A stretch of DNA of 21,175 bases from a virus: positions 1 to 21,175 of the IMG/VR virus record IMGVR_UViG_3300032053_000635; one strand, 5' to 3'. Shown one piece after another: positions 1 to 21,175 of the stretch; position 1 is the first letter of the stretch, and each line of letters opens with the position of its first letter. The notes beneath the pieces are model-generated. The model ran no database searches, was not told where the DNA came from, and saw only the letters and a program-made list of their open reading frames with translations. The translations under genes were made by a program, and so were the position numbers.

Positions 1-1764
1 GTCCTCCTTGTAACCGATGAAACCTCGCATCTGATTCAAGGTAGTAGTGTTGTGGGCTGCCCAGAATTCGATAAGGGCATCCCCCGATTCGTTGGGGTCT
101 GCACCACCGAAAGCACCGCCACCCGAAAGACGAAGATGCGGGCACGGGTATCCGTAATCCACTTCTTCTGTCAACCCGCTGTACCCACCGTGTGCATTAC
201 CAATGATGTGAACCTTGGGTACCGCTGTTACGGAGTTACCCCCCTCGCGGATTCTGACCTCAACGGGGGTCGAACCCCCATCAGGAAAGTAGGACCAGAC
301 ATCAGCAGATGTCATCCGTTGCCGAGTCGCTCCATTGATTATCGTATCCCAATTCACTGCATCCCATTTGAGGTAGTCATTAGTTCCAAGATAAAGTGAT
401 CCACCCATGGCTTTGATATCGCCTTCGGCATAGATCACGTTGTCCACTGGTACTTCAGTCGCACTTCCGACGTAAAGCCCGTTCGTAATGGCCAGACCAT
501 TTGTGGATAACCGCATCTTCTCAGCGCCACCGAGACTATGGGTAATCTTGGTGATAGTCCCAACATTGGTATCCCGCGTGATGGAAAACGCATCGGCAAA
601 GTTACTCCAGGCATCGTTTTGCGATCCGAACTGGAGAGTCTCAAAACCGCCTATGTCGGAGATGCTAAATTGCCAATTACGTTCCCCAGCTCCAGCCGCT
701 ACGCGACTCATTCGAAAAGAGTCGGCCACAGAAAGGGCACCGACAGCCATGGGCCCTAATGAATCAATAGAACCAGCGAGGTAAAGATTCGCGTAGCGGT
801 TATTGGGCGTGCCTAAATCAACCGTGTTGGTGGTCCCCGGCGACTGGGAGACCGCACCCCAGATGTGGCTTGCTGAACCGATGGCCAAGGTCAACACGTT
901 GCCGGTGCGGTTGTAGGTCAGGTGATCATCGGTGTCGAACTGCCAACGCTTGTTGGTGCCTCCGTCCAGAAAAAAGTTCGCGTCCCCTAGCGCGAGGCGG
1001 TCTTCGGTCGGGGCAGCATCAAAACCGAGGTTCATCCCGCCGATATCTCGCGCCCACCAGCGTCGGAGCCCGCGCCCCTTGATGTCCTCCAGGCACTGGC
1101 GGGTGGCCGCCGAGAACTCCTGGAAGTCGGTGACCCCGTAGGTCTTGCGATCGGCATTGCGATCGTTTGCGCCCCCACCCCCGTCAGTTGACCAGCCGGA
1201 AGCGTAGCTGCCGTCTACTGGTCCCTCGAAGTAGAAGTCCCGCATGTCGACGATGGCCATGTCCGCGCGATTGACAGTGCCAACCTGGAGCCATTCATCC
1301 CCTGGGCTCGTTGCCTCCACCCGCAGCGACCAGTTGGCCTGGTAGCGGGTGGCGATGGTCTCGGTGTACTCCGAACCCAACCCCGAAGCGTTCCAGAAAA
1401 TGCGCGGCTGGAAGTTGCCCTCTACCTCCTCGAATCGGACGTAGACCCCGTAGACCCCGCTCGCGTAAGTGTTGATGTCGACGATCTTGGTCGCGTCGCC
1501 CTCGGTGGTGAGCAGCCCGTAGTAGGTCGCCCCCGATCGGGCCTCGGCGAGCAACCCCCGGCCCTTGGCCACCTGTACCTGGGTGCCAGTCGGGCTGGTG
1601 ATAGCGAACCCCGAGAGCACCCACTTTCGCTCGCGGGTGGGCGAACAGATGAGCTGGGAGAGCAGCTGGCGGTGGACGGCAAGCGTCTGGTCCCCGAGCG
1701 AAAACTGAAAATCAGCCAGATCCATCCGCTCGTTTCCTTCAACTCGTAGCCTGTCAGTAGCCAT
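1..1764 (-). CDS. Tail fibre-like protein, C-terminus beyond left edge
   Basis: An open frame of 588 codons begins at the ATG ending at 1764 and stays open to base 1, so the stop is outside the window. The start is supported by an AGGAGG at 1773-1778, about 8 bases upstream, and the gene overlaps the end of the preceding gene by 11 bases. The N-terminus (MATDRLRVEGNERMDLADF) leads into a beta-rich region of about 180 residues. A Gly/Asp-rich linker (GWSTDGGGGANDRN) follows near residue 190-200. Beyond it are fibre-type repeats with short strands (for example NRYANLYLAGS) of the kind seen ahead of fibre tips. Position at the distal end of the tail operon, after the baseplate and adhesin genes, fits a receptor-binding fibre. 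The distal part (bases 1-850) is visibly more AT-rich than the first 300 codons. I recognise no specific family, so the role is inferred from composition and place. Confidence 0.75.
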   Translation of the reverse strand, partial: MATDRLRVEGNERMDLADFQFSLGDQTLAVHRQLLSQLICSPTRERKWVLSGFAITSPTGTQVQVAKGRGLLAEARSGATYYGLLTTEGDATKIVDINTYASGVYGVYVRFEEVEGNFQPRIFWNASGLGSEYTETIATRYQANWSLRVEATSPGDEWLQVGTVNRADMAIVDMRDFYFEGPVDGSYASGWSTDGGGGANDRNADRKTYGVTDFQEFSAATRQCLEDIKGRGLRRWWARDIGGMNLGFDAAPTEDRLALGDANFFLDGGTNKRWQFDTDDHLTYNRTGNVLTLAIGSASHIWGAVSQSPGTTNTVDLGTPNNRYANLYLAGSIDSLGPMAVGALSVADSFRMSRVAAGAGERNWQFSISDIGGFETLQFGSQNDAWSNFADAFSITRDTNVGTITKITHSLGGAEKMRLSTNGLAITNGLYVGSATEVPVDNVIYAEGDIKAMGGSLYLGTNDYLKWDAVNWDTIINGATRQRMTSADVWSYFPDGGSTPVEVRIREGGNSVTAVPKVHIIGNAHGGYSGLTEEVDYGYPCPHLRLSGGGAFGGADPNESGDALIEFWAAHNTTTLNQMRGFIGYKED

Positions 1765-4700
1765 AAAGCTCGCCTCCTATGAAATATTCGGGCACAACGC
1801 CAGCAGCTGTAAGTTGATCCACGAACGGTCTTAACATACCCAAGGGGTCTACGATAAACCACGGGTAATAGGAGTAGGTCGGCGGAGGCCCCTCGGAGTT
1901 GACCCGGGTGATGCAACTCTGTGCGGTTAGCATCTGTGCGGCGTGTTCGTCGATCGCCGAAATTTCCATGACCAGATCGTTTGCCCAGAGCGGCTCGCGC
2001 AGGGTCAACACCGTTCCAGAAAAACTCCCCGCCCCACTCTGCTCGAACGGGAGCCCCGACTCATCAACAAAATTCGGGAGCAGCCCCCAGGTCAACCCGA
2101 CTTCGGTCGTGAACGTAGCCGCGGATACCTGGCAGGTACGCGAGCGCTTTGTTCCAGAAAAAGTCTCGGTGGCGTAGTCGGCCCCGGTGTCCGGGTTGAA
2201 GAGCTGGGTGATTAAGTAGGTGCCGTCCTTGCCGCTGTGCGATCCAGAAATCACGATGCTCTTACCCAGGTCGTCTGGGTAGACGAAAGATCCCCGGCCA
2301 TCTGTCCAAGGGATGGTGATCTGGGTCGGAGCGCCTGAGCTGGTCTGGGCGTCTGCGCGCTCAATCCCGCGTAGGGTCACCTCGGTCGGACTCACGTAGG
2401 TCGCGATTCTCCAGCGCCCATTGTTACTCCCGCCCTGGGCGTTGGCCGCAGCCGATCCGTAGGTACGCAGCGGCTTGCCCACGTCGGTGGCCAGAAAGGT
2501 GTGGGTCGTCCCGCCGATGTCGAGCTGCACGGGGTTGGCCGTGAGCACCTCGCCGTCTACCCCTCGGCCGCTCCAGTAGTCGGTCGGGGTCTGGATGCTC
2601 GCCCGCAGCTGCTTCACCCAGAGCGCCATTCCAGAATTGGGGGCACCGCGGATGCCCAATTCGACCCGGTGGTCGGTATTCGGGGCCCCGGAGAAGGCGG
2701 AGTAGGCCACCCGAGAGATGGACTGCCCATTGAGGTACAGCTCTACCCAGGCTCCAGTCTTTTTCAACTCTACGGTATAATAGGTGTTTCTGGATAGAGT
2801 CACGGTCGTGCCCAGGAACCCGCCGCCAGAGGTAGCGAACAGCCCGAAGGCAAGGTCGCTCCCGAGCCCGGCGCTGATCCGGAAGGCGCCGTCGGACACC
2901 GCGAGCGAGGCCTGCTCCAGCTCCCCGGCCTTCAGGGTGGCCGCCGTAGGGATGGACAGGAGCAGAGCCACCACCCAGTCCGACTCTGCCGTGAGGCGCG
3001 CTCCCTGGGTGTCGAGCATGCGGTAGTAGACCGTCCCAGCGCTTCCCGCAGTCAGCTTGGTCTGGCCGTTCTCCACCGCAACCGAAGCTCCCTCGCTGAG
3101 CGCCCCTGCGTAGGTGAAGGCGCTGGCCGGGGTGATCCCCGGGTAATAGGGGTAGACCACATCGCTTGGCCGCACCGTGCGGAAGTCGAAGACTTCTTGC
3201 AGCGGCTTGAGCTGTACCCCATAAACAAAAAGTGGAGTAGCTGATAGGTCCAATGTCTCGGCCGTACCCCGTAGCGCATCCCAGTACAGTTCGGTCAACC
3301 AGGCCTTTCCGGATCCCTTCTGCGCCGAGTGGGTGAGCGCATCTCCAGTGAGTCGGACGAACACCTGGCAGGGGTATCGGATGAGATCCTCGTAGACCTC
3401 GAAGTTGCCTGCGCCGGCCATACCCGTGAGCGCCAACTCCAGGCCCAGCATTGAGCCCTTTGGGTTGTAGGCTACCCCGCGGATGACCTCCCGGTAGACA
3501 TCATCCTCGGTGAAAACGGGATGGCGGATGAGCCCGAAGTTTCGACCGATGACGTTCAGATCTTCGCCGTCGGCGTAATTGATCAGCATCGCGCGGCGGA
3601 GCTGCTCCATGAAACTGCGTTCACGGCTGATGTCAGTGACCTCGGCTTCGACATGGTGGATCATCGCCGCCCCGGCAGTCGACTCTCCCGCGCGGATGTG
3701 CTGGATGCCCGTGAACGAGGTAGCGGTCTTTCCAGTATAGGTGTAAGGCACCCCTTCTACCGCGCAGCGCCCAACGGCTGGCCAGCCCTCGGTGGTCTCG
3801 ACCACGAACGTCGTTGCCCCTTCCAGAATTGGGGTGAGGAGCCGGGTAGAAACCAGCCCGGCCATCTCGGTGCAGGCCTCCCCGATAGCGCCGGTGAGCG
3901 CCTCGATGAGCCCTTGGTCTTGCGGATGAGCGGCATCAGAGCCGGTGGGCGAATAACCGATGAACTCGTAGGTGCAATGGGCCGGGTCGATGGGCCCGCC
4001 GGCTAAGTCAGTCACCCCCGAAACCACCACCTCGTAAAGAGCCTCTGGGGTCTGCTGGTTGGTGCGCACCACGTACTGGTGCAACACCACGTTGAACAGG
4101 TAAACCCCGGAGATGATCAGCCCGTCGATTTCATAATTGTCGCCATCATCGGCCCCGAGCACGGGCTCAGAGAATTGCACCAGGACCCGGAAGAGCCCCG
4201 TCGACCGCGCGTCGGTCACCTGTGGCATCTCTCCCAGGCCGATGAACTCGAACTCCCGGGCAGTCGGGTCTATCGTGCGCAAATCGAAGGACTGGGCGGT
4301 CGCGACAATCACCGCGTCGTAGGTTTCCCCGGCAGTCCCTTCCCCGTCTAGCTGGATATCGATGATGGTCGGGCTGGCTTGCACCAGCGTGACCAAGGTC
4401 GCAGAGACTCCGTGGGCGAGCGTCTCGAAGGTCCAGTTAGAAGCCTTGAGCACGTCGGTCGAGTCGTCTTCTCCCAGCCGCATCAATTGGTCGAAGGTCG
4501 CCTGCACCTTGTCTTTGGCCGTCGCTTCGACCAGTACGAGTTTTGCCCGATCTGGATCCAGAACTGTCGCGCTGCCGGTCACCGCTTCCGAGTAGTCGTG
4601 ATAAATGTTGGAGGAGAACACCGAGTAGTAATAGAGCTGGCGATCTAGATCGTCGTCGAGAAATCCCGTCCCCGTTCCTTGGTAGGCCAAATCTCCGCTA

Positions 4701-5659
4701 CTGGGGGAAGAGGGGTACGCAGTGATCGAGCGGCGCACGATCACTTCCAGAAAATCACTGGATACCGGGTTGGCCCAAGAGAGTGAAACCTGGCGATATG
4801 CGGGACCAGCGATTACTGATAAGTCGGTGACCGACAAGAAATAGAGGCCTGGCTCCAGCAAAGCCAGGTTGCGCATATCCTCGACCCCACTCCCACCGAG
4901 TGAAGCCAGCGTAGGCGCCAGCACTTCGTCATAGTGGACCGGGTAACCGGTGTGGTAGAGGAAGCGTACCTCTTCAGCCGTCCAGGAACGGTTGGCGGCA
5001 GCGATCTCGTCATACTTGCCATTGCTTTGATGGAGTCTTTGGTTCGTCCCAAAATAGTCCCAGCAGGCCCCTCCAATTAACAGAGGGATCGTGCTGGTTT
5101 TCATACCTCCGATACTGCCAGTATTCGAGCTAGCCAGGTACCCGTTTTTGTAAACCCTGAGTGTGGTGATTCCTGAATCAGGATCATAGTCTACGGTAAT
5201 CGCCCAGTGAACCCAGGACCCATTTGTCACCGGCGCTGTTACCGCAATATTGCCGGTAGCTCCCCAGTAGGTGAAACTGATCGGGGTTCCTGTTCCCGCA
5301 GTTTGAGAAACCCAGAGACGGCACTGTGCGTGCATCACCGAACCATCCCAGCTCCCTAGTGTCAAATGAGTCTGAAACGGGGTAACACTGTTGAGGTTGG
5401 CCCAGTAGGACAGGGAAAAGCTCTGGGCGTCGGCGAGTAGTTGGCCAAGGTTCAGTGCCTGGCAGGTACCGATCGCATCTTGTGGGTCCCCGTTGCCATC
5501 AAAAGCGATGCAGTTTCGGAGTGCACCGGAGACCGTGCTTATCGCCTTTTCGGCAGTTCCGTTGTTGCTCCCGTGACTGTCGGTGACGTTACCTTCTAAC
5601 TTGTAGTAGGCGATCAGGCTGGAGAGGAGCGCGGCATTTGCCTGAATGGTGGAGGCCAT
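1754..5659 (-). CDS. Mosaic LamG / FN3-like / tail-protein-I-like baseplate adhesin
   Basis: A 1301-aa protein. Residues about 10-245 form a LamG/concanavalin-like domain (LIAYYKLEGN start, GYPVHYDEVLA end). Residues about 275-355 look like FN3. Residues about 370-570 look like two Ig-like/SwmB-type domains (for example VQATFDQLM and VLVQFSEPV). Residues about 610-660 hold a short beta module found in tail proteins. Residues about 685-780 match the general pattern of tail protein I or wedge proteins (DGEDLNVIGRNFGL, DDVYREVI, NPKGS). Residues about 840-1025 form a second lectin-like sandwich. The last 270 residues include two copies of an F..tDvGK...Gs...NG...I module. The ATG at 5659 has a GAGGAG upstream that lies inside the end of the previous gene. 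Likely role: a baseplate-anchored adhesin in which the I-like part docks to the wedge and the lectin-like parts bind surface glycans (inference). Confidence 0.82.
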   Translation of the reverse strand: MASTIQANAALLSSLIAYYKLEGNVTDSHGSNNGTAEKAISTVSGALRNCIAFDGNGDPQDAIGTCQALNLGQLLADAQSFSLSYWANLNSVTPFQTHLTLGSWDGSVMHAQCRLWVSQTAGTGTPISFTYWGATGNIAVTAPVTNGSWVHWAITVDYDPDSGITTLRVYKNGYLASSNTGSIGGMKTSTIPLLIGGACWDYFGTNQRLHQSNGKYDEIAAANRSWTAEEVRFLYHTGYPVHYDEVLAPTLASLGGSGVEDMRNLALLEPGLYFLSVTDLSVIAGPAYRQVSLSWANPVSSDFLEVIVRRSITAYPSSPSSGDLAYQGTGTGFLDDDLDRQLYYYSVFSSNIYHDYSEAVTGSATVLDPDRAKLVLVEATAKDKVQATFDQLMRLGEDDSTDVLKASNWTFETLAHGVSATLVTLVQASPTIIDIQLDGEGTAGETYDAVIVATAQSFDLRTIDPTAREFEFIGLGEMPQVTDARSTGLFRVLVQFSEPVLGADDGDNYEIDGLIISGVYLFNVVLHQYVVRTNQQTPEALYEVVVSGVTDLAGGPIDPAHCTYEFIGYSPTGSDAAHPQDQGLIEALTGAIGEACTEMAGLVSTRLLTPILEGATTFVVETTEGWPAVGRCAVEGVPYTYTGKTATSFTGIQHIRAGESTAGAAMIHHVEAEVTDISRERSFMEQLRRAMLINYADGEDLNVIGRNFGLIRHPVFTEDDVYREVIRGVAYNPKGSMLGLELALTGMAGAGNFEVYEDLIRYPCQVFVRLTGDALTHSAQKGSGKAWLTELYWDALRGTAETLDLSATPLFVYGVQLKPLQEVFDFRTVRPSDVVYPYYPGITPASAFTYAGALSEGASVAVENGQTKLTAGSAGTVYYRMLDTQGARLTAESDWVVALLLSIPTAATLKAGELEQASLAVSDGAFRISAGLGSDLAFGLFATSGGGFLGTTVTLSRNTYYTVELKKTGAWVELYLNGQSISRVAYSAFSGAPNTDHRVELGIRGAPNSGMALWVKQLRASIQTPTDYWSGRGVDGEVLTANPVQLDIGGTTHTFLATDVGKPLRTYGSAAANAQGGSNNGRWRIATYVSPTEVTLRGIERADAQTSSGAPTQITIPWTDGRGSFVYPDDLGKSIVISGSHSGKDGTYLITQLFNPDTGADYATETFSGTKRSRTCQVSAATFTTEVGLTWGLLPNFVDESGLPFEQSGAGSFSGTVLTLREPLWANDLVMEISAIDEHAAQMLTAQSCITRVNSEGPPPTYSYYPWFIVDPLGMLRPFVDQLTAAGVVPEYFIGGELYGY

Positions 5660-6646: not shown

Positions 6647-6659
6647 CGCTTAGCGCCTC

Positions 6660-6695
6660 CCGGCTAGGGTTTTTCTGGAAAACGCTCCTAGTCGG
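6660..6695. repeat. Nested inverted repeat around a TTCTGGAA site
   Basis: Outer arms CCGGCTAGG (6660-6668) and CCTAGTCGG (6687-6695) pair except for one position. Between them GTTTTTCTGGAAAAC carries the dispersed octamer at 6673-6680, nearly on the same centre. The left-hand arm lies next to the GGGAGG of the LamG gene starting at 6646, and the other arm contains the stop codon of the 620-aa gene. No T-run follows on either strand, so it does not look like an intrinsic terminator. It may be an operator or a translation-control structure (inference). Confidence 0.55.
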
Positions 6696-8550
6696 TCTCG
6701 GGCCCCATGGCAACCCACATTGCACTGTCCGAGCAGTAAAACAATCGGAAGGTCTGGTAGCTTCCTTGGAACATCACCTTGATGATGTCCTCGTTGAGTG
6801 CGTTCCAGACATTGGAGACATACCGCACGTCGCGGACGTACCCAGGCCTTCGGTTGATGTCGCTCCCCATATAGCGGTAATCGGTAGCGCCATTTAGGCT
6901 AGACTCTCGCAGGCACATTGGGATCAGAAACTGTGACCCGGTAAAGGCCTCGGGATATGCGTTTGGCCCAGTAATCCGATCCGCCAAATTTTCCAGGCTG
7001 TAATCGCTATACGCGAAATCCGCCTGCCATGGTTTGACCACTCCGTTCGGCTGGAAGTTGAGGTTGGAAGTGCATCGCCAACGAATTCGGTGAACCGGGT
7101 TATACGGCATGGTGAAGACCCGGTCGTTTCGCACTTGGTGCCAGACGCACGCGCTTCCATTTCCACCGAATTGCACCCAGGTCTCAGCGGCGGGCCCGGC
7201 CGTGGGGCCTACGTGGCAACGAATGCACTCCCCGATGAGCGCTCCAGCCAAATAGCTGTAGCAGGTGCCAGTGAAAAGGGTAAGCACGTTGGTGCCCAAG
7301 TCCACGTTGGTAACCAGCACGTATTCAAATGGTGCTTCGTCCCCGTCCAGATTCGGCCAACTATTGCTGCCGCCTCCTCCAGGAGCACCCATGTACGGGT
7401 TGGATACCTGGTTGCGGTTGTTGTGCCAATCAGTGCCCGGCGTTCCAGAAAGCAACATGTACCGGCCGCCCTTTGTAAAGAGCGCAGCGTCAGCCACTTT
7501 GATCTGGGTCGCGCCGGCAGCAATGGCACCATCATTGGTCGCAGCAGCCGTGGTGTACACCGTGTTTCCGTACGGCTGGAATAGCCCGATGTAGTTCACG
7601 ATGTAGTTGTTGTTTCCCATCATCACGACAACCGACACCCCATCTTTGGATCCGTAGAACCAGCAATCCTTGGGGCTGGCAATGAAGTCATAGCGCAGGC
7701 AAGGGCAGCGCTGGTACGCGGCACCGCCGACCGTCTGATGGCGGCTCCCTTGCGGGTGCATGGCCGGAGAAATGATGGAGACGTGCTGCACGCCCGGCGC
7801 GGTGTAGAAGGGGCTGTACGCTGAAAGCCGGAGCTTGCCCGTGGCCTCACAGGTCTGGGTCGTGATGAAGCGCATCCGTCCGTCAGCGACTTTTACCAAG
7901 GTGCAATTGTCGATCTTGTAATCGTCATAGGTGGTGTGCAGGTCCGTGGAGTCCGTCGTGATGTCAGTGGCGCAAGTGGTCGTACCAATCGACCAACCAA
8001 CCGTACCAGTGCTCGACATGAGGGGGTTGACCAGATCTCTCACGCCGGCGATAGTCAGCGCTGGAGCGCAGTTGGTTATGCGCAGTGCTACATCCCCAGC
8101 ATCGTGGGCTACTGCAGTGGTCCCGTACATCCCGCGCACGCAAGAGGTCAGCGTGGCACCAGCTATGCCGACTTGGATCAACTCATCGGCAATCTGGATC
8201 ATGTCCCCGTTGAGTAGGTTCGGGATAGCGTTAACCAGTGGGATCACGGTATCCGTGGATAGGATACCGGCAAACACGTACGCCAGGTCACCATGCCAGC
8301 GCCGGGTGTTTCCGGTGCTCCAGGTGCCGATGTGCAATGGGATGTTTTGGTTGCCGTCTTCCCCGTTGGATTTCAGGAACCAACCCAGGATAAAGGCATG
8401 CTTGTCTTCCTGGGCGGTGCGGGCAGTAAGATCCTTGGTCGGGCTGTTTGGGTCATGGATCCAGCCGCAATCGGTGACCAGGAAATCCGCGAGTTTTTTG
8501 CAAAAGTCCGCGGTGGAATTGCACAGAACATGCTTACCTTTGAAGGCCAT
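6688..8550 (-). CDS. Large cysteine-rich virion protein, unknown family
   Basis: A 620-aa protein that I cannot assign to a named family. It starts at an ATG four bases beyond the previous stop, with GGAGTGA overlapping that stop. It has 18 cysteines, many for a phage structural protein, including a RCPC pair. Near residues 112-150 there is a beta module of the type G..IqIadE.I.V...VRG..GT.a..HdaGdv that recurs in tail fibre and baseplate proteins. A similar module (GATQIKVADAALF) appears near residue 340, followed by a Gly-rich loop (GAPGGGGSNSW). No signal peptide or membrane segment is apparent. Place between the J-like wedge gene and the LamG adhesins suggests a baseplate-peripheral or fibre-attachment component. 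The existence of the gene is secure; its function is not. Confidence 0.8.
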   Translation of the reverse strand: MAFKGKHVLCNSTADFCKKLADFLVTDCGWIHDPNSPTKDLTARTAQEDKHAFILGWFLKSNGEDGNQNIPLHIGTWSTGNTRRWHGDLAYVFAGILSTDTVIPLVNAIPNLLNGDMIQIADELIQVGIAGATLTSCVRGMYGTTAVAHDAGDVALRITNCAPALTIAGVRDLVNPLMSSTGTVGWSIGTTTCATDITTDSTDLHTTYDDYKIDNCTLVKVADGRMRFITTQTCEATGKLRLSAYSPFYTAPGVQHVSIISPAMHPQGSRHQTVGGAAYQRCPCLRYDFIASPKDCWFYGSKDGVSVVVMMGNNNYIVNYIGLFQPYGNTVYTTAAATNDGAIAAGATQIKVADAALFTKGGRYMLLSGTPGTDWHNNRNQVSNPYMGAPGGGGSNSWPNLDGDEAPFEYVLVTNVDLGTNVLTLFTGTCYSYLAGALIGECIRCHVGPTAGPAAETWVQFGGNGSACVWHQVRNDRVFTMPYNPVHRIRWRCTSNLNFQPNGVVKPWQADFAYSDYSLENLADRITGPNAYPEAFTGSQFLIPMCLRESSLNGATDYRYMGSDINRRPGYVRDVRYVSNVWNALNEDIIKVMFQGSYQTFRLFYCSDSAMWVAMGPETD

Positions 8551-8553
8551 GGC

Positions 8554-8790: not shown

Positions 8791-8801
8791 GGTCGAGCCC
8801 T

Positions 8802-8809: not shown

Positions 8810-8812
8810 AAT

Positions 8813-10661: not shown

Positions 10662-12647
10662 CTACATCGCAGCCTTGACCGTGAAAGACTCGGCCGAGCC
10701 CCGCACCGAGACGGTCAAGTCGGTCTCGAAAATATCGCCTTCGATGATGAACTCCACATTTTCTACCCCAATAATTCGCGGGTCGGCGCACACCGCTTCC
10801 ACCACTCGAAACCGCGCCATCTCGATATCGACGGTGGAAAGGCCCAGACCCACCACCCGCTGCAAGCCGACGTTCTTGTACAGCGTATCAGTCCCTCGGT
10901 CGGTTACCAAGCGCTGTAGAACGGCCTGGGCGATGTTGGCTTTCCCCTCGACGAGCTTGGCGTCTACGGAACCCCCGTTGATGTCGATGGCGATGTCGTA
11001 GCGCGCGTTGCGCTCCCCGGTGTACCCCGTGGATACCTCCAGGGCGAAATCTACCCCCAGCAAGTGGTTTTCGGCTGGCTCTTCGAGCTTGACCCCGGCG
11101 ATTGGAAGTACCGGCAGATCGAGTACCGAGACCTGGTTGCTAGGGATGAGAATCTTCGACCCAATACCAACTGACTGGGGGAAGGGTTTGGCGTCGACTC
11201 CGCTGGTCGTTCCAGAAATACGACTGCCGACCAACGGCATCGAGGCATGGGCGTTGACGAACGGGGGCTGAAGGCCGTTCATGACGGCGATGTACTGCCA
11301 CTTGCGCGCGTCGCCCAGGTATTGAGCCGCAAGTGACATGAGCGTGTCGCCCTGGCCGATAACGACCTGGATAGCGGAGCGGAACTTGAAGACCTCCCCG
11401 CCGATGACCAACTCCCCGTCTATCGCCAACTCCTCGCCCGGGGTGAGCTTGCTTCCCCAGTTGCGCAGGGCGGAGAAGGTCGAAGGTGCCGTGCTCGCGC
11501 GAGCCTCCTTGCGCCGGTCTGCGCTCACCCGCCGGCGAGTCTCTTGGAAATCACGGATGTCAGCCATGACCGTGTTGTTTCCCCGCTCCCATCTTTCTGG
11601 AGCAGTGCCCAAACGCTCCAGGCCGTCTTTCACCTGGCGGATCTTCTGCCGGGCAATTTCTGGAAAGTCCAAGGTCGCTTCTGTCGCGTCGCTGAGTTCC
11701 TGGGCCGAGTTTTCGATCTCCAGGGCGTTTTCTAGCATATCGATGGTAGTTTCCAGAAAAGCGTAAGGGGCCTGGACGAGCGCAGTGATACCGTCCAGAA
11801 AATCATCGACCGCCCCCAAGATGGCGTTGACCGAGTCCAAGATGGCGTTGATGTTCTGCACGAACAGCCGCACTTCGTTGACCATCGCGGTCAGATCGGC
11901 GACCGCACCTCTGACCCAATCAGCAGCCGTCTTGGCCCAGGCTAGCCAGTCTTTCATCTTGTCGAAGATCGATTGATCTTCGCTGAAGTCGGCGTTAGCG
12001 TTTTTAGCCGGGCCCACCGCAAGCAGCTCGATGTCGTAGCGGTAGAGCAACGGTTCTCCGGAAGAGCGCGTCAGATCGAATCGCTGCGGGATGACCTCCC
12101 AGTCCTCCTGGTCTTTGGGGTTGTGAAAGAAGAGCTTGGTCTCGGCCGCAGTCTCGGGGTTTCGCTTCAAGTCTCCGTAGGTCCTGAAAACAGAATCCTG
12201 AAGGTACTGGAAGTGCCGTTGCCCAGACAGTGCCCCGACCCAGAAGGGCTGCAGAGCGCGCGAATAGTTTCGCTCTGTCTCCGTTAGCGAAGGGACTACC
12301 GCCTTCTTCAACGGCAGCGTCCGGGGTTTCCAGCCAGTGTGCCCCGCGAGCCGGATGGTGCGGACGATGATTCCGTTCTCCTCGACGTAGACCCCGCCTC
12401 CTTGGGTCTGGGTGATCTCCACCGCGAAGGGTTCGGACATCGAGTAGTTCTGGGGCGGGATGACCAGTGGGAAGAGAAAGCGCGAGTTGCCCAGAGTCGC
12501 AGCGATTTTCCCCGGCACCTGCAACTCGAAGTAGTAGATGAGCCGCTTGTAGAAGAAGTCATCTTTGTTCTGCTTCTGCCGGAGTACTTCTTTGAAGTGG
12601 GCGATGGCCCCGCCCGGAGCGTTGGGGATGTTGTCAGCCAGGGCCAT
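10662..12647 (-). CDS. Baseplate protein with LysM and C-terminal gp25-like domain
   Basis: A 661-aa multidomain protein. Residues 1-230 form a beta-rich domain (FELQVPGKI, RTIRLAGHTGWK) of the type seen in tail or baseplate initiator proteins. Residues about 240-350 are long helices with coiled-coil character. Residues about 430-506 form a LysM domain (QVVIGQGDTLMSLAAQYLGD, then KILIPSN), comparable to LysM-bearing gp53-type baseplate proteins. Residues about 530-661 resemble gp25/gpW-type wedge proteins (AVLQRLVTDRGTD, AVCADPRIIGVENVEF). In T4, gp25 and gp53 work with gp6 in the wedge, so this single chain next to the J/gp6-like gene probably supplies both parts. Start ATG at 12647 has AGGAGG 8-9 bases upstream and follows a hairpin. 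Confidence 0.85.
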   Translation of the reverse strand: MALADNIPNAPGGAIAHFKEVLRQKQNKDDFFYKRLIYYFELQVPGKIAATLGNSRFLFPLVIPPQNYSMSEPFAVEITQTQGGGVYVEENGIIVRTIRLAGHTGWKPRTLPLKKAVVPSLTETERNYSRALQPFWVGALSGQRHFQYLQDSVFRTYGDLKRNPETAAETKLFFHNPKDQEDWEVIPQRFDLTRSSGEPLLYRYDIELLAVGPAKNANADFSEDQSIFDKMKDWLAWAKTAADWVRGAVADLTAMVNEVRLFVQNINAILDSVNAILGAVDDFLDGITALVQAPYAFLETTIDMLENALEIENSAQELSDATEATLDFPEIARQKIRQVKDGLERLGTAPERWERGNNTVMADIRDFQETRRRVSADRRKEARASTAPSTFSALRNWGSKLTPGEELAIDGELVIGGEVFKFRSAIQVVIGQGDTLMSLAAQYLGDARKWQYIAVMNGLQPPFVNAHASMPLVGSRISGTTSGVDAKPFPQSVGIGSKILIPSNQVSVLDLPVLPIAGVKLEEPAENHLLGVDFALEVSTGYTGERNARYDIAIDINGGSVDAKLVEGKANIAQAVLQRLVTDRGTDTLYKNVGLQRVVGLGLSTVDIEMARFRVVEAVCADPRIIGVENVEFIIEGDIFETDLTVSVRGSAESFTVKAAM

Positions 12648-12818: not shown

Positions 12819-13875
12819 CAGGAAATAATAACTTATTTGACTCTATCCCGCTATCCCAGGACGGAGCCCCCACTGGAATCGTCGGCGTGGTAGTCGGCCC
12901 GCTCATAGAGTCGGTGTGAATGTGCAAGTCAGCCGCATCGAGCTTAGCTTTCAATGAATTGTAAAGAGTCTTCAAGTGGTTAGCTATAGCCGCCTTCACC
13001 GCTCCGTCACCCAGGGTGAGCTTGGCGGTCGCCGCCTTGCCTTCCACCTTCAACTCAGGATCTTCTTCCAGAGTCACTTCTAACCCCGTTTTCTGGAAAG
13101 CTAACCTAGCTAATTCAGAAGGATTTTCCGGGTCAGCCATGTCGTAGATGACCACCTGGAGCTTGGCCTCCTTGGGCAGGTTGAGCGTCTGGTTTCCCTT
13201 ATCCGCATCGGTCGGGTAGAGTGTCTCTTTCCCGTCTTCCTCCAGCTTCCCGTCCCCAGCCCGGCGGGTATCAACCAGAAAGTTCCCCAAGCCGTCAACT
13301 CCCCAGTGCACTCCGTTGTGCCTCCGCAAGTCCGGGTTCCCGTCAACGAGCTTGAGCCCCATCCGCACCCCTAGCTCACCCTCGGCCCGCCCTAAGTCCA
13401 GAACTGGGTGAGGAAGTCCCCCCAAAATGACCGGCATTTCTAAAGAGTCGTTCAAAAACCCGACGATAACGTGATCCCCATCCATGTAGGCTGGATCGGA
13501 AGTCGGGCAGATCCCTTGATGCAGATCAACTCGGGCAGCTCGGGGCATCCAGATCCTGCCCCCGTGGATCCCCGCTCCCCCCTCCTGCATGACCAGTACG
13601 TTGGTCATCCCTACCCAGCGTTGCCCAGGGATAGATGGGAAGAGGAGGACATCACAATAGATTCCGACTGGAGTGACTGCCTTATTTCCGGGCTGTAAAT
13701 GCCCTTCAGGGCCATAGGGATGGTGGGCATCGTCTAAGGCATAGGTGGCGGTCACCACCCCCCGCAGAAGCAGCCCGTTTGTGCGGAGCGACCCGATCTG
13801 TCGCTTCGGGACGCTGCTTTGTAACAACGTCCCGGCGCGGGTGCGGGCAGGCTTGTAGGTGTCTTCGGTACCCAT
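12811..13875 (-). CDS. Baseplate spike protein with OB fold (gpV/gp5-like)
   Basis: A 354-aa protein. Residues about 36-155 fit the OB-fold domain of gpV/gp5/VgrG-like spikes, with GRIWMPRA, DGDHVIVGFLNDSLEMPVILGGL and similar strand patterns; the short PVILGGL is characteristic. Residues about 155-300 are beta-rich and charged (LEVTLEEDPELKVEG), fitting a trimeric beta-prism or helix. Near residue 317 is HIHTDSMSGPTTTP; a His-x-His pair at the tip of such spikes can bind a metal ion in this family. The gene lies directly after the hub gene, as is usual. The ATG at 13875 is preceded by TGAGGTAA, which includes the upstream stop. No lysozyme domain is present. Confidence 0.85.
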   Translation of the reverse strand: MGTEDTYKPARTRAGTLLQSSVPKRQIGSLRTNGLLLRGVVTATYALDDAHHPYGPEGHLQPGNKAVTPVGIYCDVLLFPSIPGQRWVGMTNVLVMQEGGAGIHGGRIWMPRAARVDLHQGICPTSDPAYMDGDHVIVGFLNDSLEMPVILGGLPHPVLDLGRAEGELGVRMGLKLVDGNPDLRRHNGVHWGVDGLGNFLVDTRRAGDGKLEEDGKETLYPTDADKGNQTLNLPKEAKLQVVIYDMADPENPSELARLAFQKTGLEVTLEEDPELKVEGKAATAKLTLGDGAVKAAIANHLKTLYNSLKAKLDAADLHIHTDSMSGPTTTPTIPVGAPSWDSGIESNKLLFPDG

Positions 13876-13882: not shown

Positions 13883-15382
13883 TCATTGCCACTTGAGCCA
13901 GGAAACGTCAGTCAATAGCTTCGGCTCCGCGTAGCGATCTGACATTTGCTTGAGCGCCTCTTTCATCGAGCGATCCGACCCTACCCACCCGCGAGTTACC
14001 CCCAATGCGGTCCGGGTTCCCTGGCCGAAAGACCAATTGTGCCCGACCGACTCCACGTAGTAGGTCTCCTGGTCGACTTCGCCGTGCTCCCCGGGAATGC
14101 GCAACTTGCAGCCGATCTTTATGTCCGGGCGTCCTATCCCCAGATTGAGGGACCCAGATAGAAAATATGGATTCAGGCAATGCCAATCTCTTGCAATTCT
14201 CCGCTGCTGTTCGCAGAGTTTCGAGAAATCGAGCTGGTCAGGGCTCATCGCGGATTGCACGTCAAAGCGCCGTAGCCCGTGCCGGTGCAGCGACTGGAAG
14301 TCCACCAACGGCGTGAGGATGTTGAGCGAATTCTGGCCGAAGGCCTCTTGGTGGAGCTGGCTCGCGACGAAAAAGGCGTTGAAGCGTTCCAGGCCCGAAC
14401 GGCCCACGTTGTCGTTGACGATCTGCTGACGGGGCACCACGAATTGCGGCACCGAATCCCAGCTGATCGGCCAAGCGTCGATTTTCGGATCGACCACTGG
14501 AAAGGGTCGATCGCGCACGACCACGGTCATGTACACGTCTTCCGGGGCGAACGAAGTACCCGACTGCAGCCGCCCATCGAATGGCCCACCACCAGGCAAC
14601 ATGTCCGCGTAGAATTCAACAAACGGGGGATCTGCGTGCTGCTGCGCTGTGGCCCAGAGAGTGTTATTCGGGTCCATGAAACTCGGGTTGAAGCTCTTCC
14701 GGGCAGGCGCGTTGTAGTAGTGGTTATCGTTGAACGTGACCCACTTTAGAAAAGAACCGCCCCCGTTGGGCATACCGGATGGCATCTCCCAATTGACCCC
14801 CGCAGTCACGCTCACTTTCTCCAGGAAGTTCCAGAGAAAAGCCCGCACCGCATCAGGTGGCGTCCCACGCAGGTTGGGGATGGCCTCAAAGATCATTGTC
14901 GCCCAGGCGTCGGATATCATATCCCGATCGCCACAAGGGGAGAACCATACCGGAGTGGTCTCCCAGATCTTCGCGAAGTCCCGACCGGTAAGGGTGTAGC
15001 TCTTGACCGTCGCCCCAGAGCCCCCGACCGAGCGGTTGCGCCGGATCTCATCAACCAGTCCGCGCATCACATGCCAGGGCTGGGCGTGACGGTAGAAGAC
15101 GATGTCGATCCAGTCGTCGTCGCAGATGTGCTGGAAGAGATTCGCCGCAGCGAGCGAAGGCTTGATGTCGACGGTGAAAGACCCGCTCGCTGCCCCGAGC
15201 ATTTTTTGGGTCGAGACCGAGACCAGGGAAGGGTGCTTGGCGTCGGCGCGTTTTCCAGAAAATGGGTACTTCCCCATTCCTTCTGGAAGCATGATCAGCG
15301 GGTCGTCGCCGTGCGAGTAGAGGATGACCTCGGCCCAGCTCGTCTCGCTCCCCTGGAACCCGGTCTTGTAGACGTTGGCCAT
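13883..15382 (-). CDS. Baseplate hub protein (gpD/gp27/XkdQ-like)
   Basis: A 499-aa protein between the tape measure and spike genes, the standard place for the hub that joins tube and spike. The N-terminus has beta strands typical of hub domain I, including the SGSFTVDIKPSL and DDDWIDIVFYRHAQP stretch, then DEIRRNRS and SYTLTGRDFAKI near residues 110-140, a pattern shared by gpD/XkdQ-like hubs. The C-terminus has KIGCKLRIPG and ETYYVESVGHNWSFGQG followed by TALGVTRGW, again typical of hub endings. It starts at ATG 15382, overlapping the tape measure stop (TGACATG) with only a weak CAGGG SD, so translation is probably coupled. It is longer than simple hubs, with a loop-rich insertion in the middle. 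Confidence 0.78.
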   Translation of the reverse strand: MANVYKTGFQGSETSWAEVILYSHGDDPLIMLPEGMGKYPFSGKRADAKHPSLVSVSTQKMLGAASGSFTVDIKPSLAAANLFQHICDDDWIDIVFYRHAQPWHVMRGLVDEIRRNRSVGGSGATVKSYTLTGRDFAKIWETTPVWFSPCGDRDMISDAWATMIFEAIPNLRGTPPDAVRAFLWNFLEKVSVTAGVNWEMPSGMPNGGGSFLKWVTFNDNHYYNAPARKSFNPSFMDPNNTLWATAQQHADPPFVEFYADMLPGGGPFDGRLQSGTSFAPEDVYMTVVVRDRPFPVVDPKIDAWPISWDSVPQFVVPRQQIVNDNVGRSGLERFNAFFVASQLHQEAFGQNSLNILTPLVDFQSLHRHGLRRFDVQSAMSPDQLDFSKLCEQQRRIARDWHCLNPYFLSGSLNLGIGRPDIKIGCKLRIPGEHGEVDQETYYVESVGHNWSFGQGTRTALGVTRGWVGSDRSMKEALKQMSDRYAEPKLLTDVSWLKWQ

Positions 15383-15383
15383 G

Positions 15384-17756
15384 TCAGTTTAGCCCTGCAG
15401 CCTTTTTGAGCACATCCCAGACATCGCCGAAGGACACGTCCTTGTTGTTGGTCACTTTCTCCATTGCCGCACCAAAGACTTGGAATTGCTTGGTTAATTT
15501 CACTAGCGGTCCCGCGTCCCCAGCGAGGTTCGAAAAAGATTTCACCAGGTCAGCCGCGGCTTTGTCCATGGAGTTGACCACATTGATCATATTCTCGCCG
15601 GCGGCGATTTGCTGGTTCTGAATAGCTGCTTGGGCCTTAAGCTCCCCGGGTACCGCACCCTTGGCTGCCCCGATGAGCCCCTTGGTGGTCACGATCTTAG
15701 CGCGCCCTTCCCCTTCGGCCCGCCTGGCGGCTTCGGAGTCGGCGTACTTCTGCTCTTCGGGGGTGAGCTTACCGCCGGTGAGCTGCTTCTCCAGTAGCCC
15801 GATTTCTTTCTGGCCCATCTGGATGCCCATCTGCTTGCCCAGCACGCTGCGCAGGAAGAACCGCCCGGTCGCCCCACCGCCACCCATTTCCATGATCGAG
15901 CGCATGACATCGGACATACCTTTGTCGGCACCAATGCCCCCCACCCCGCCTTTCTTCAGCTTCCCGCCCATCTCCTCCATCTGGATCACGGCTTTCTCGT
16001 ACTCAGCCGCCCCGCCTGTTCCCGTGTAGCCGCCCATCTTGTTGAGCAGCATCATATCGAGTCCGCCTTGCGGGCCCCGGGCGCCGATGCCCTGCATGTA
16101 GCTGGCGGCTCCGCTGGCTATCTTGGCCGCGCGAGTTCCAGAAATTCCCGCCTGAGAGAAGGTGGTGGCCATCTCCTTGATGGCGTCGGGGGCGATAGGG
16201 ATGCCGGTCGTCTCCCACTGCTTGATCCCTTCGGCCATCGACTGCATGTAATCGACCATCTCGCTACCTTCCAGCCCGAGCTTGAGCCCGTCATTGATCG
16301 CCCGGGTCATCATCTGGTCAGCCTGCCCCGGGCCACCGGAGATGCCGCCCCGACGCCCGGCCTGGAGAAAGGCGCCAGAGGTATCGCCCCCGATCCCGAA
16401 AAGCGTCTTTGCCGCAAAGCCAGTCTTGAGCATCCCCTGATTCATCATCTCGCGCCCTGAGCCCCCACCACTACGGAGGATTTCGGTCATCGCCTGGAGG
16501 GATTGGTCCTTGGCCATGCCGAACTGCACGCCCTCGCGCTGAGCGGCATAAACCGGATCATTCATGCGCCGACGCGCGCCAGCGATAGTCCTTTGTCGGG
16601 CTATGCTAGCTTGCTTCTCGGACGAAATATTGTCAGCCGCACGCATCCCCTGCCAGTTACTTTGCTGCTGGCTAGAAAATTGAGTGAACTCTTTTTCGTC
16701 GATGAACTGTCTAGCTTTCTGGGCCCAGGCATATTTTTCGTACCCGCGGGGGATACGAGTCGCGTACCCCCCGCCATCAGGGCTAGCGCGGAAGGCGCGT
16801 TCAGCAGCTTCCGGGTTCTTGGCGTTAAAGCGCTGGCGCATTCCCGGAATCATTTTCTGGAATTCTGCATCCGAGTAGATCGATGCGTTCTGCGAACGAG
16901 ACCGCGCGACTTCTGACTGGTATCGAGACCCCGCGGCCCCCCGCGCCACGGCCATCTCCAGCCCACCGCCAACGTAAGGCATCGCTTCGAGCTGTTGTCG
17001 GCGCCACTCCATCGCCCGGCCGGCGTAACCTACGGCGGTCCCCATCATCCCGCCGAGGATCCCGCCCCCAGGCAGCGCGCTGGCCATCTGGGCTAGGCCT
17101 TGGGCGCCCTGGAAGGGAGCTTGGGCAACGGCACCGCCGAAAGCCGCCGTACGCTGAAGCGCCCCGCGCGCTACCGCTCCGGTTGCCTGCCCGGCCGCCT
17201 GGCGCAGGAACCCTGGGCCACGCTGCAAGAACAGCGGGGCTACTCCGGGGGCAGCGGTCTGGGCGAATCCCTGGGTAAAGGCCCACTTAGCCTGTTGCTC
17301 TGCCTGGTGGCGCTTCTGGTCCTCGCGCTCCTGGGCCTGGCTCGTGGATTGCTTACGCTTCTCCTCGGTCTTGGCGAGCTGCTCCTCTGCGCGATTCAGC
17401 TCCCTGGCTGCACGAGCTTCCGCAGAGTAGGCCTTTTCCAGATTTTTGACCGCGCCTTCCAGATCCTCTGATTGGCCTTGGGTCTGCTTCAGGCTCTCGG
17501 AAAGCGCCTTGTAGGCGACTGAGGATTTGTCTTTGATCCCGGCCATCGCCGTGAAAAGCGTAGCTTGGGTCTTGGCTAGCTTAACGATTTGCCCATCGAG
17601 CCCGACGATTTTCGACTGAGCTTCATCGTAGCTCTTTGCCTGATCCTTCATTCCTTTGAGCGCTGACTCGCTGACCTTGAGGATTTTCTGGAGTGCTTCA
17701 TCGAAGCCCTGGGCTTCGGCGGTAATAACTACTCCGGTGCGGATATCACCTGCCAT
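15384..17756 (-). CDS. Tail tape measure protein
   Basis: A 790-aa protein following the tail assembly chaperone frames, the universal place for the tape measure. Residues about 20-155 are coiled-coil and highly charged (NLEKAYSAEARAARELNRAE, then KTEEKRKQ). Residues about 157-250 are Ala/Gly-rich and hydrophobic (GGGILGGMMGTAVGYAG), as in the membrane-interacting region of tape measures. The rest is Gly/Met/Gln-rich and helical. The general relation of about 0.15 nm of tail per residue would predict a tail of roughly 120 nm, an estimate only. The ATG at 17756 has GGAGGCC upstream inside the end of the previous frame, four bases beyond its stop. No lysozyme or peptidase motif is evident. Confidence 0.93.
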   Translation of the reverse strand: MAGDIRTGVVITAEAQGFDEALQKILKVSESALKGMKDQAKSYDEAQSKIVGLDGQIVKLAKTQATLFTAMAGIKDKSSVAYKALSESLKQTQGQSEDLEGAVKNLEKAYSAEARAARELNRAEEQLAKTEEKRKQSTSQAQEREDQKRHQAEQQAKWAFTQGFAQTAAPGVAPLFLQRGPGFLRQAAGQATGAVARGALQRTAAFGGAVAQAPFQGAQGLAQMASALPGGGILGGMMGTAVGYAGRAMEWRRQQLEAMPYVGGGLEMAVARGAAGSRYQSEVARSRSQNASIYSDAEFQKMIPGMRQRFNAKNPEAAERAFRASPDGGGYATRIPRGYEKYAWAQKARQFIDEKEFTQFSSQQQSNWQGMRAADNISSEKQASIARQRTIAGARRRMNDPVYAAQREGVQFGMAKDQSLQAMTEILRSGGGSGREMMNQGMLKTGFAAKTLFGIGGDTSGAFLQAGRRGGISGGPGQADQMMTRAINDGLKLGLEGSEMVDYMQSMAEGIKQWETTGIPIAPDAIKEMATTFSQAGISGTRAAKIASGAASYMQGIGARGPQGGLDMMLLNKMGGYTGTGGAAEYEKAVIQMEEMGGKLKKGGVGGIGADKGMSDVMRSIMEMGGGGATGRFFLRSVLGKQMGIQMGQKEIGLLEKQLTGGKLTPEEQKYADSEAARRAEGEGRAKIVTTKGLIGAAKGAVPGELKAQAAIQNQQIAAGENMINVVNSMDKAAADLVKSFSNLAGDAGPLVKLTKQFQVFGAAMEKVTNNKDVSFGDVWDVLKKAAGLN

Positions 17757-18113: not shown

Positions 18114-18600
18114 GAAAGGTCGATTCGTGCGAGACCACCTCCATGTAGATCTCTTGCAGCAAGCGCACGTCGTCGAGGGCGAGCAAATCCTCAGCCCACT
18201 TGGGTCGCGACACCAGGCTGAAAGAGAGATGCGATACCATCAGATTGATCTCGGCGGTGAGCGCGTCCAGATTCGACGGCGAGATCCCTGCAGCCAGGTT
18301 CGAACGCATGATGCCCATCAGTTGCCGGTCGCGGATGTTCAGCACCCGGTTGGTGAACTTCCCCGCCCAGACCTTGCCGCGCCCGCTCTTCCAGCGAAAA
18401 TCGAAAGTGTGCTCGCGCTGAGAACGAGGACCCTCCGCTTCGTTTTCTGGAACGCCATCGGCTATCCCCTCGATTTTACTGCTGATGGCTTTCTTCAGAT
18501 CGTCGATTTCTTCTGGAATCAGGGGTTGAAGGTGTTCCGGCCTGGTCAATCGCTCGAAGGCCTCTGAGGTAATCCCGATCTTGTCAGTCAATCCAGACAT
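18070..18600 (-). CDS. Tail assembly chaperone, short form (G-like)
   Basis: A 176-aa protein starting at ATG 18600 with AAGGAGA 9-10 bases upstream. It is mostly helical and charged, with a basic central segment (RWKSGRGKVWAGKFTNRVLN). It ends in a low-complexity tail (KGSSASGTGG), typical of a frame that is mostly read past by frameshifting. Position between the tube gene and the tape measure, followed by an overlapping frame, identifies it as the G-like assembly chaperone rather than any sequence motif. It is not expected in the finished virion. A terminator lies between it and the tube gene, consistent with lower expression. Confidence 0.8.
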   Translation of the reverse strand: MSGLTDKIGITSEAFERLTRPEHLQPLIPEEIDDLKKAISSKIEGIADGVPENEAEGPRSQREHTFDFRWKSGRGKVWAGKFTNRVLNIRDRQLMGIMRSNLAAGISPSNLDALTAEINLMVSHLSFSLVSRPKWAEDLLALDDVRLLQEIYMEVVSHESTFLGYTKGSSASGTGG

Positions 18601-19203: not shown

Positions 19204-21175
19204 TTATGCCGTCTGGCGGATCGTCACCAGATGGATCGTATTTTTGACGAAGTTGACCGGGATGATCGGAGCCATCTCCACCTCGACATCGAGCACATCT
19301 GCAGCCATTTCGATGCCCAAGCTCTTCCAGGCCACCAGCACGATAGAGTCGACCAGCAACCCCAGCGTGCCGAGAGCGACTCCCTTGGCCGCGTTGATGG
19401 TACCGGCGAAACCGCGTTTCCCCACAGCCATCTCCATGTTTGTACGGAAGGAGAACGCTGCAAAGTTCACCGCCGCGTTGACCGAGCCTTCGATGTAGGC
19501 CAGGTTGTTCGAACTGAGGTGGGTGGTCACGTTGCGGACGAAGCGTCGGCCTACGCCCTCGACGTTTTCCAGAAAACAGAGTCCGCCCTGGATCATCTCC
19601 TCGGCGTCATCGACCGGGTTCCAATCGGTGTCCTGCCGCAACGCGAGCACGTTGGCGTACTTGAAGGTGAGCGAAGTCCCCGGAGGCGCCCCAGCCTGCA
19701 TGCCCGCGGCAATCGCTGCCGTGAAGAACGGCAGGAACTCTGCCCGCTCTCCCGCGGTGTTGTACCGCTCGATGGACTGGGGGAAGGCGCGGATGTGGCG
19801 AGTGTTCAGGTCCACCGCCTGCTCCTTGGCCTCGTCCTTGGTCGGGACGTCGTCGAGCGCGGTGTTGAGCAACCCAACGAAGCCATCCCGCTCGCTCCGG
19901 CCGATGCCACACATGTACGCGCAGTGCGCGTCAACCGCGGCATGGACCGCCGGATCTCCGGTCAACACTACGACCGAATTGACCCGCACCTTCTTCAGCA
20001 GGTTCAGCGCTGCCTGCCAGTGCGAGAAGCTTGTGGTGCCTTCACTGCCACCAGCAAGGAAGGTCGCGGTGGTGGTGTTCGACGGTAACCCGCCCTTGGC
20101 CCCCGAAGCCTTCGCCGCAGTGATGTACTGCGAGTTGGAGTTGATCCAGTCGATGCACGTCCAGAGATTGGCGTAGAAGGGGGGATCGGCCGGGGAAAGG
20201 CAACTCTGCGGACCCTGGGCTCCGGTGGTCACATCCAAATTCTGGGGGGAGAAAGTGGTCTTCGACGTCACCATCGTGAAGACGAATCCAGCGCTGGAGG
20301 CGTAGCGGCTGTTGTAGTAGTCGGCGCATTTCTGGAGCGTCGATTGCACCGTCACCGAGGTGCGCCCGGCGTTGGCCGAGAAAGTGATGGTCTGGGCTGC
20401 TTCCACCTCGCCCATGGCCAGGTACTGCAGCTCGGAGAAATTCGCCGTTCCGGCCACCCCGGTGGTCCCGGTCAGGGTGATCTTCTCCAGCTGTACCGCC
20501 CCCGAAGCCGCGAGCCCAACGAGCAGCAGCCGCTTGGTGCTCGCTCCGCTGGAGACCGAAGTCACTGGCAAGTTGCCCACGTAGCCAGCAGCGAACTTGG
20601 CCAGGCCCTTGACCGGGTTGGCACCGGCGGCGATGGTCAACAGCGTCGTGCCCCCGGTGTGCTTGGTCATGGTTCCCGTACCCACGAGGGTGCCGGTAAC
20701 GCGAGCCCCAAGCACTTTTGAGAAAGTCTGCGTGCCCGCCACCAGCGTGGTGCCGTTGAGCGTGAGGCTCTCGCTCACCGCTGCCGCGGAAGCATCCAAG
20801 CCATAGACGATGAGCGAGAGTCCAACGTCCGAGGCGCTGGAGGAGACCACGTCGACCAGACCATTGACATCGAGCTGGCTGGTGATGTCCCCGTCGAGAC
20901 CGAGTTGGGCGCGGGTGGCCTTGGCCACGATCGCTCCGCTCGACTCCACTTCAGCGGTCATCGCGTCCCAACCGTTGGTCGGCTTGACATACTTGAGCTT
21001 GAAGAACGTGTCTCCGCCCACGTCATCGCCGGCCTCCACCTGATCCTCGAAGGTGATGGTGATGAGCTTGCCCTGCACCGTGCCATCGTCGATGGCGACG
21101 TTGATCTGGCTGGTGAAGGCGCCGTAGTCGACTGACGTGAGCACGAGCGCGCTCCCGTAGCTGTTGCCCAGTGCA
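19204..21175 (-). CDS. Contractile tail sheath protein, N-terminus beyond right edge
   Basis: The frame is open to the right edge (657 codons visible). A GTG at 21144 is possible as a start, but the frame continues in coding style upstream (ALGNSYGSALVLTSVDYG), so the true start lies outside. The C-terminal part is typical of sheath proteins: DWNPVDDAEEMIQGGLCFLE, then the FVRNVTTHL strand, a helical region (EGSVNAAVNFAAFSFRTN), and the last strands DVEVEMAPIIPVNFVKNTI that donate to neighbouring subunits. The middle holds two tandem copies of a beta module (about 20690-20825 and 20410-20535). The SD of the tube gene overlaps its stop. Sheath contraction drives the tube through the host envelope. 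Confidence 0.93.
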   Translation of the reverse strand, partial: ALGNSYGSALVLTSVDYGAFTSQINVAIDDGTVQGKLITITFEDQVEAGDDVGGDTFFKLKYVKPTNGWDAMTAEVESSGAIVAKATRAQLGLDGDITSQLDVNGLVDVVSSSASDVGLSLIVYGLDASAAAVSESLTLNGTTLVAGTQTFSKVLGARVTGTLVGTGTMTKHTGGTTLLTIAAGANPVKGLAKFAAGYVGNLPVTSVSSGASTKRLLLVGLAASGAVQLEKITLTGTTGVAGTANFSELQYLAMGEVEAAQTITFSANAGRTSVTVQSTLQKCADYYNSRYASSAGFVFTMVTSKTTFSPQNLDVTTGAQGPQSCLSPADPPFYANLWTCIDWINSNSQYITAAKASGAKGGLPSNTTTATFLAGGSEGTTSFSHWQAALNLLKKVRVNSVVVLTGDPAVHAAVDAHCAYMCGIGRSERDGFVGLLNTALDDVPTKDEAKEQAVDLNTRHIRAFPQSIERYNTAGERAEFLPFFTAAIAAGMQAGAPPGTSLTFKYANVLALRQDTDWNPVDDAEEMIQGGLCFLENVEGVGRRFVRNVTTHLSSNNLAYIEGSVNAAVNFAAFSFRTNMEMAVGKRGFAGTINAAKGVALGTLGLLVDSIVLVAWKSLGIEMAADVLDVEVEMAPIIPVNFVKNTIHLVTIRQTA

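Follow-up and report, generated by a model that had tools for sequence, protein, structure and literature searches.

Chi, DNA uptake sequences (DUS) and the highly iterated palindrome HIP1 are dispersed words of bacterial chromosomes, Chi being also enriched in some coliphages. DUS occur about once per kb. Coliphages over-represent Chi when they need concatemers or RecBCD recombination, or when they are without RecBCD inhibitors (Bobay et al. 2013, PMC3784561), and coliphage Chi stands at 0.2 per kb, about 2.5- to 3-fold enriched (PMC3784561). The stoperators of cluster A mycobacteriophages are 13 bp long, are present in up to approximately 30 copies and for the most part share a single orientation with respect to transcription (PMC6550527, PMC9283540). 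Here, we describe a dispersed octamer, TTCCAGAA, with the core TCCAGA, in the 21,175-nt virus record IMGVR_UViG_3300032053_000635 (the window, that is, the whole stretch of DNA analyzed) and in related phages. The word occurs in excess throughout the genome, whatever the strand, the frame or the function of the gene, and selection keeps it at individual positions; relatives replace it with dialects that differ by one or two bases, namely, TCCGGA, TCCGCA and TCCAGACG.

Counts, conservation and shape of the octamer

The genes of the window lie on the minus strand and include those for the tail sheath, tube initiator, baseplate J and LamG-domain tail proteins. An exact recount agrees with the preliminary description of this DNA in finding 24 octamers, 15 as TTCCAGAA on the plus strand and 9 as TTCTGGAA, the first starting at 1391 and the last ending at 19574. 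Its hand estimates (GC content of approximately 58% and 0.6 octamers expected) give way to computed values of 59.5% and, from composition on both strands, 0.38, with the over-representation itself standing. Two of the 24 octamers are intergenic; the 22 within genes compare with a mean of 1.8 and a maximum of 4 in 300 codon-preserving shuffles within each gene, so that the shuffle, named beforehand as a possible refutation, never approaches the observed counts. All 3 frames are used and, as described previously, the encoded residues vary with the frame and are unrelated (FW, SG, LE, SR, PE and QK). The use of AGA for arginine within the motif in the J gene, noted previously, was also borne out: AGA accounts for 15 of the 342 arginine codons of the window, and 3 of these fall within the core motif, including both J-gene sites. 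With codon usage taken into account, the core ranks first among the hexamers of the window (51 copies versus 19 expected); its density is approximately 2.5 per kb, and TTCCAGAAA occurs about once per kb. The individual TTCCAGAA sites of the window and the overall core count are as follows.

1391..1398, plus strand, octamer site encoding F W in the minus-strand gene 1-1764
2014..2021, plus strand, octamer site among the 18 of 19 aligned sites retained in the relative G001
2152..2159, plus strand, octamer site
2629..2636, plus strand, octamer site
3821..3828, plus strand, octamer site
4745..4752, plus strand, octamer site
6673..6680, minus strand, octamer site, intergenic (6647-6687)
7443..7450, plus strand, octamer site
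8802..8809, plus strand, octamer site, intergenic (8551-8812)
9154..9161, plus strand, octamer site
10171..10178, plus strand, octamer site in the baseplate J gene
10357..10364, minus strand, octamer site in the baseplate J gene, TCC AGA encoding S R
10399..10406, minus strand, octamer site in the baseplate J gene, TCC AGA encoding S R
11210..11217, plus strand, octamer site
11658..11665, minus strand, octamer site
11751..11758, plus strand, octamer site
13091..13098, minus strand, octamer site
15253..15260, plus strand, octamer site in gene 13883-15382
15281..15288, minus strand, octamer site in gene 13883-15382
16136..16143, plus strand, octamer site
16855..16862, minus strand, octamer site
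18445..18452, minus strand, octamer site
18511..18518, minus strand, octamer site
19567..19574, plus strand, octamer site in the tail sheath gene
1..21175, both strands, core TCCAGA in 54 copies (35 plus, 19 minus), top over-represented hexamer of the window

Conservation of individual sites was assessed in codon alignments with related IMG/VR records reached via the tail sheath. The window shares 18 of 19 aligned octamer sites with G001 and 14 of 18 with G003, the genes of the latter pair being approximately 70% identical in bases. The analysis was then confined to amino-acid-identical sites, with the expectation taken from the synonymous identity of each codon in the same gene pairs. All such sites are kept between the window and G001 (18/18, 4.8 expected) and between the window and G003 (11/11, 1.2 expected), as are 18 of 19 between G015 and G001 (2.1 expected); between G015 and G003, which share 65% DNA identity, all 8 bases are kept at 41 of 50 sites, with 5.7 expected. 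The TCCAGACG dialect behaves in the same way, with 21 of 30 sites kept between G734 and G735 (2.1 expected). No comparable conservation was seen in other 8-mers of similar composition, all of which are rare. These comparisons indicate that purifying selection holds the DNA word at individual positions, with turnover at the remaining sites. Together with the codon shuffle (22 versus 1.8), conservation beyond synonymous identity upholds the earlier proposal that selection acts on nucleotides rather than on protein, and we consider the word to be almost certainly a selected DNA signal.

The motif was originally described across the tail operon (1391-19574), which is accurate for the 21-kb record but not as a limit, since longer relatives carry the word genome-wide. 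There are 135 octamers in G003 (109 kb), 141 in G015 (97 kb), 64 in G001 (56 kb) and 22 in G002 (23 kb), and the density in related phages is 1.1 to 1.5 per kb over the whole genome. In the longer relatives, copies are scattered through structural and replication genes alike with Poisson spacing, their intergenic share is close to the intergenic share of length, and neither helical phasing nor regular spacing nor runs of one orientation were seen. Orientation is near random in G003 (63/72) and G015 (75/66), also relative to genes (63 sense and 69 antisense in G003; 75 and 66 in G015). G001 is skewed (48/16), and thus the orientation is not always balanced.

In octamers pooled from the window and close relatives, A follows in 73% and T precedes in 34% of the copies, with a weak A/T run behind. 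One-base neighbors within TCCAGA are barely enriched, an exactness as expected of a word read by an enzyme, whereas substitutions are tolerated at the outer T and A. Since the 10-mer TTTCCAGAAA is present in only 10 copies in the window versus 20 for TTCCAGAAA, the consensus that fits best is asymmetric, TTCCAGAAA(w), and not the symmetric 10-mer. The word is thus asymmetric and can be written (k)TTCCAGAAA(w), TCCAGA being its strict core. The near-dyad TTTC-NN-GAAA, proposed earlier as a sign of a dimeric binding protein, is not sustained by this imbalance between the left T and the right A, nor by the sister words TCCAGACG and TCCGCA, which are not dyads. Other words were noted in passing: CCTTGGCC and CTTGGCCA form a putative, weaker secondary word in the window, with 9 and 7 copies against approximately 1.2 expected, and G001 alone contains ATGTGGTA (32 versus 1.4) and GTACCACA (25 versus 1.7), which may be protein repeats.

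Dialects and their distribution

Relatives at 40% to 60% protein identity were scored by the same codon shuffle, with ranks among approximately 2,080 hexamers. TCCAGA is the rank-1 hexamer in 9 records (the window, G001, G003, G015, G744, G004, L018, G734 and G735), which differ on its 3' side: AAA in the clade of the window, C(G/A) in G734 and G735, and AA, AT or CT in G004 and L018. Accordingly, TCCAGACG is favored in G734 and G735, with 129 and 112 copies. TCCGGA ranks first in two 110-kb phages, G1182 and G1183 (354 and 311 copies versus 67 and 60 expected), in which the true palindrome TTCCGGAA is present in 155 and 37 copies, respectively. TCCGCA ranks first in G737 (367 versus 123 expected), and G009 favors CTCCAG, TCCAGC and TCCAGCAA. 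No such word was found by this shuffle in G006, G739, G007 and G008, family members of similar composition, so that neither composition nor protein families can be its cause.

TCCGGA reaches five-fold enrichment in G1182 and G1183 but has no copy in the genes of G734, G009, G736 and G740, where 21 to 38 copies are expected after codon correction; the genes counted are those of the whole records (L365-L370, L293-L298, L377-L381 and L388-L393, respectively). In some family members this hexamer thus resembles a restriction site under avoidance, and in others a word under selection. The palindrome GCTCGAGC is strongly over-represented in G737, G736, G012, L345, L420 and L453 (138 versus 18 in G737, both strands) and is possibly a second word class. 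Its candidacy as a further dialect is doubtful because the distantly related Bordetella phage PHB04 is also moderately enriched in it.

Possible readers and competing explanations

By analogy, we tentatively interpret the octamer as a Chi-like dispersed recognition word that co-evolves with its reader. We infer that a sequence-specific protein reads the word on double- or single-stranded DNA and that its specificity drifts between lineages. The word would stop or switch a helicase-nuclease working on free DNA ends, either a host RecBCD/AddAB-type enzyme or the end-processing machinery of the phage itself. Such action would guide recombination and shield the concatemers of phage DNA during replication, and a very high density would be of advantage, since a break anywhere should lie within a few hundred bases of a copy. 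The longest relatives carry a T4-like set of genes, including those for RuvC-like, SbcC, SbcD, UvsX/RecA-like and SSB-like proteins, PolA, primase and a UvsW-like helicase, a recombination and replication module that would make Chi-like use the most likely. The asymmetric strict core, the density, the indifference to strand and gene, the dialects and the recombination-based replication module are together best accommodated by a Chi-like word.

Several observations weigh against this interpretation. The density of 1.1 to 1.5 per kb and the enrichment exceed the values for coliphage Chi (PMC3784561), and Chi would not usually be expected to have a palindromic dialect such as TTCCGGAA. On quick trees, both of the sheath and of the UvsW-like helicase, the word is distributed patchily, requiring several gains or losses. 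No gene was found to be present exactly where the word is, and no strong TTCCAGAAA signal appeared in 1,129 bacterial genomes from 4 phyla, although these may have a weak Chi-like excess. These genomes comprised 398 Pseudomonadota, 297 Desulfobacterota, 226 Planctomycetota and 208 Acidobacteriota, each set being labeled with the phylum of the genome that anchored the search, and the highest density among them was approximately 0.11 per kb versus approximately 0.9 per kb in the phage. No naturally competent bacterium enriched in the word was found in the 4 phyla sampled, and no tRNAs that could hint at the host were found.

The following candidate proteins were considered and rejected. The first is a lysine-rich, histone H1-like protein with a C-terminal DUF2924 domain, the correlation of which with the word in the first 5 genomes later broke down: it is absent (E<1) from the TCCGGA phages G1182 and G1183 and was also found in GCTCGAGC-rich phages, one of them lacking the word. 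Proteins of this kind adjoin the replication genes at L288:13181-14362 (G015), L038:12514-13587 (G003) and L420:9536-10483, and the AlphaFold model, although confident (predicted local distance difference test score of 83), has no neighbor in the PDB. The second, a 176-aa protein encoded beside the SSB-like gene, is family-wide and remotely related to proteins of phages that lack the word, and is therefore not specific to it. The third group comprises large virion-associated proteins with SNF2 helicase, inorganic pyrophosphatase, ADP-ribosyltransferase and intein domains, in which no methyltransferase domain was found. Such giant multidomain proteins, also with intein/homing-endonuclease domains, adjoin the capsid genes (L292:1598-7390 and L291:15436-19764 in G015; L484:10964-19999 in G1182) and resemble injected polyvalent proteins.

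It is possible, if doubtful, that T4-like/SPO1-like environmental phages have a genome-saturating code of their own, in which a phage-encoded reader of a 6- to 9-bp word of the TCC-R-S-A type would co-evolve rapidly with it and give rise to sister dialects. The word would then be a private, virus-encoded equivalent of Chi or DUS, a self mark by which phage DNA is replicated, protected or packaged. In G015, the major capsid protein (L291:2839-4272) is approximately 40% identical to those of SPO1-type Bacillus phages, and the replication genes look T4-like.

A binding site for a phage nucleoid, packaging or genome-organizing protein, with dialects arising from drift of that protein, is an unlikely explanation. 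It would account for the even genome-wide spread in both orientations, for the near-dyad TTC-CA-GAA and the true palindrome TTCCGGAA in relatives, and some family members do encode the H1-like DUF2924 protein beside replication genes. However, the distribution of that protein does not follow the word, as it is missing from the dialect-richest G1182 and G1183, and the dyad is not conserved in TCCAGACG and TCCGCA. Furthermore, sites of structural proteins usually tolerate mismatches, unlike the strict core described here, and neither helical phasing nor regular spacing was seen.

We regard it as unlikely that the word is the target of a phage or host DNA-modifying enzyme, kept dense since modification marks or protects phage DNA. 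Base-by-base change in non-palindromic words of 6 to 8 bp is reminiscent of the way in which certain adenine methyltransferases drift in specificity. In cyanobacteria, HIP words have been linked to methyltransferases (PMC4390886). G735, and only G735, encodes a D12-class adenine methyltransferase, and TCCGGA, with no copies in the genes of 4 phages and five-fold enrichment in 2, may in certain hosts be the target of a restriction enzyme. Nevertheless, a crude motif search revealed no methyltransferase common to the word-bearing phages, and restriction or modification sites are normally avoided rather than accumulated.

Mirroring of a host-genome signature, such as a HIP-like word, an uptake sequence or another chromosome-wide signal, appears improbable. 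The patchiness on the sheath tree, with several gains or losses, is what host switching would give, and the density of the word resembles that of HIP1 or DUS. Among the matches listed in a viral scan for paired words, G015 was a strongly enriched new relative and L202 (IMGVR_UViG_3300031998_000825, GC content of 32%) a weaker, unrelated one, in which TTCCAGAA occurs 12 times versus 2.8 expected and TCCAGA 43 times versus 17. This AT-rich contig, apparently unrelated, has no protein that matches sequenced members of the family of the window phage, and the two may share a host. Yet none of the 1,129 genomes comes near the phage density, and when paired copies were sought in 84,980 genomes, those listed were unrelated single matches with no organism repeated.

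Stoperator-type repressor sites that silence transcription in lysogeny are a very improbable identity for the word, even though cluster A stoperators are likewise dispersed asymmetric words with lineage-specific variants (PMC6550527, PMC9283540). A single predominant orientation was not found in G003 (63/72) or G015 (75/66), G001 being skewed (48/16), and there are approximately 140 copies per 100 kb. The annotated genes, which are part of all genes, include no repressor or integrase, and the repressor or DNA-binding gene that the preliminary description envisaged for the word was not found. Finally, origin by chance from codon usage, composition or protein sequence, to which the ordinary codons TTC, CTG, GAA and CAG and a modest compositional background in many genomes might point, is refuted by the codon shuffles and by site conservation, with family members of similar GC content being without the word, 3 frames and both strands being used, and synonymous positions within sites being conserved far above expectation.

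Comparison with known dispersed words

No paper describing the word as a genome-wide motif was found in the literature, and the text matches to the octamer that were listed resemble primers or stretches of genes. A virus lineage that keeps one exact word at more than 100 positions, conserved in many cases, while the dialects of its relatives drift, would be strong evidence for a sequence-reading machine new to phage biology. It offers a handle on 3 questions, namely, the reader of the word, the value of the dialect as a predictor of the host, and the protection that word density may give phage DNA against end-degrading or CRISPR-feeding nucleases, and could serve as a marker of host linkage or taxonomy for uncultured phages.

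As previously stated, the octamer shares its sequence with none of the known signals compared, and the parallels with stoperators, restriction-modification sites and Chi or FtsK-orienting polar sequences (KOPS) are analogies. With cluster A stoperators it shares dispersed asymmetric words and dialects that drift with the genome, the stoperator dialects being repressor-specific, but it differs in copy number (approximately 140 per 100 kb), in its random orientation and in that none of the annotated genes is a repressor. HIP1 (GCGATCGC, PMC4390886) likewise saturates a genome with one short word, and the TTCCGGAA dialect is palindromic as well; HIP1, however, is a palindromic feature of cyanobacterial chromosomes, whereas TTCCAGAA and its core TCCAGA are non-palindromic and viral. 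The DUS of Neisseriaceae and Pasteurellaceae (PMC7371117) similarly lie in genes and have a strict core and dialects between related lineages, but they mark bacterial chromosomes for transformation, while the bearer of the present word is a phage.

Chi (GCTGGTGG, read by RecBCD; PMC3784561, PMC8022716) differs in sequence, with none of the 5 proteobacterial Chi octamers being equal to the word or its dialects, as well as in density (0.2 versus 1.1 to 1.5 per kb) and enrichment (approximately 3-fold versus up to approximately ten-fold over the codon shuffle, for an 8- or 9-mer); a palindromic dialect exists for the word. Like Chi, the word is over-represented genome-wide, short, asymmetric, phage-enriched and located inside genes, with lineage-specific variants and a plausible tie to recombination and concatemers.

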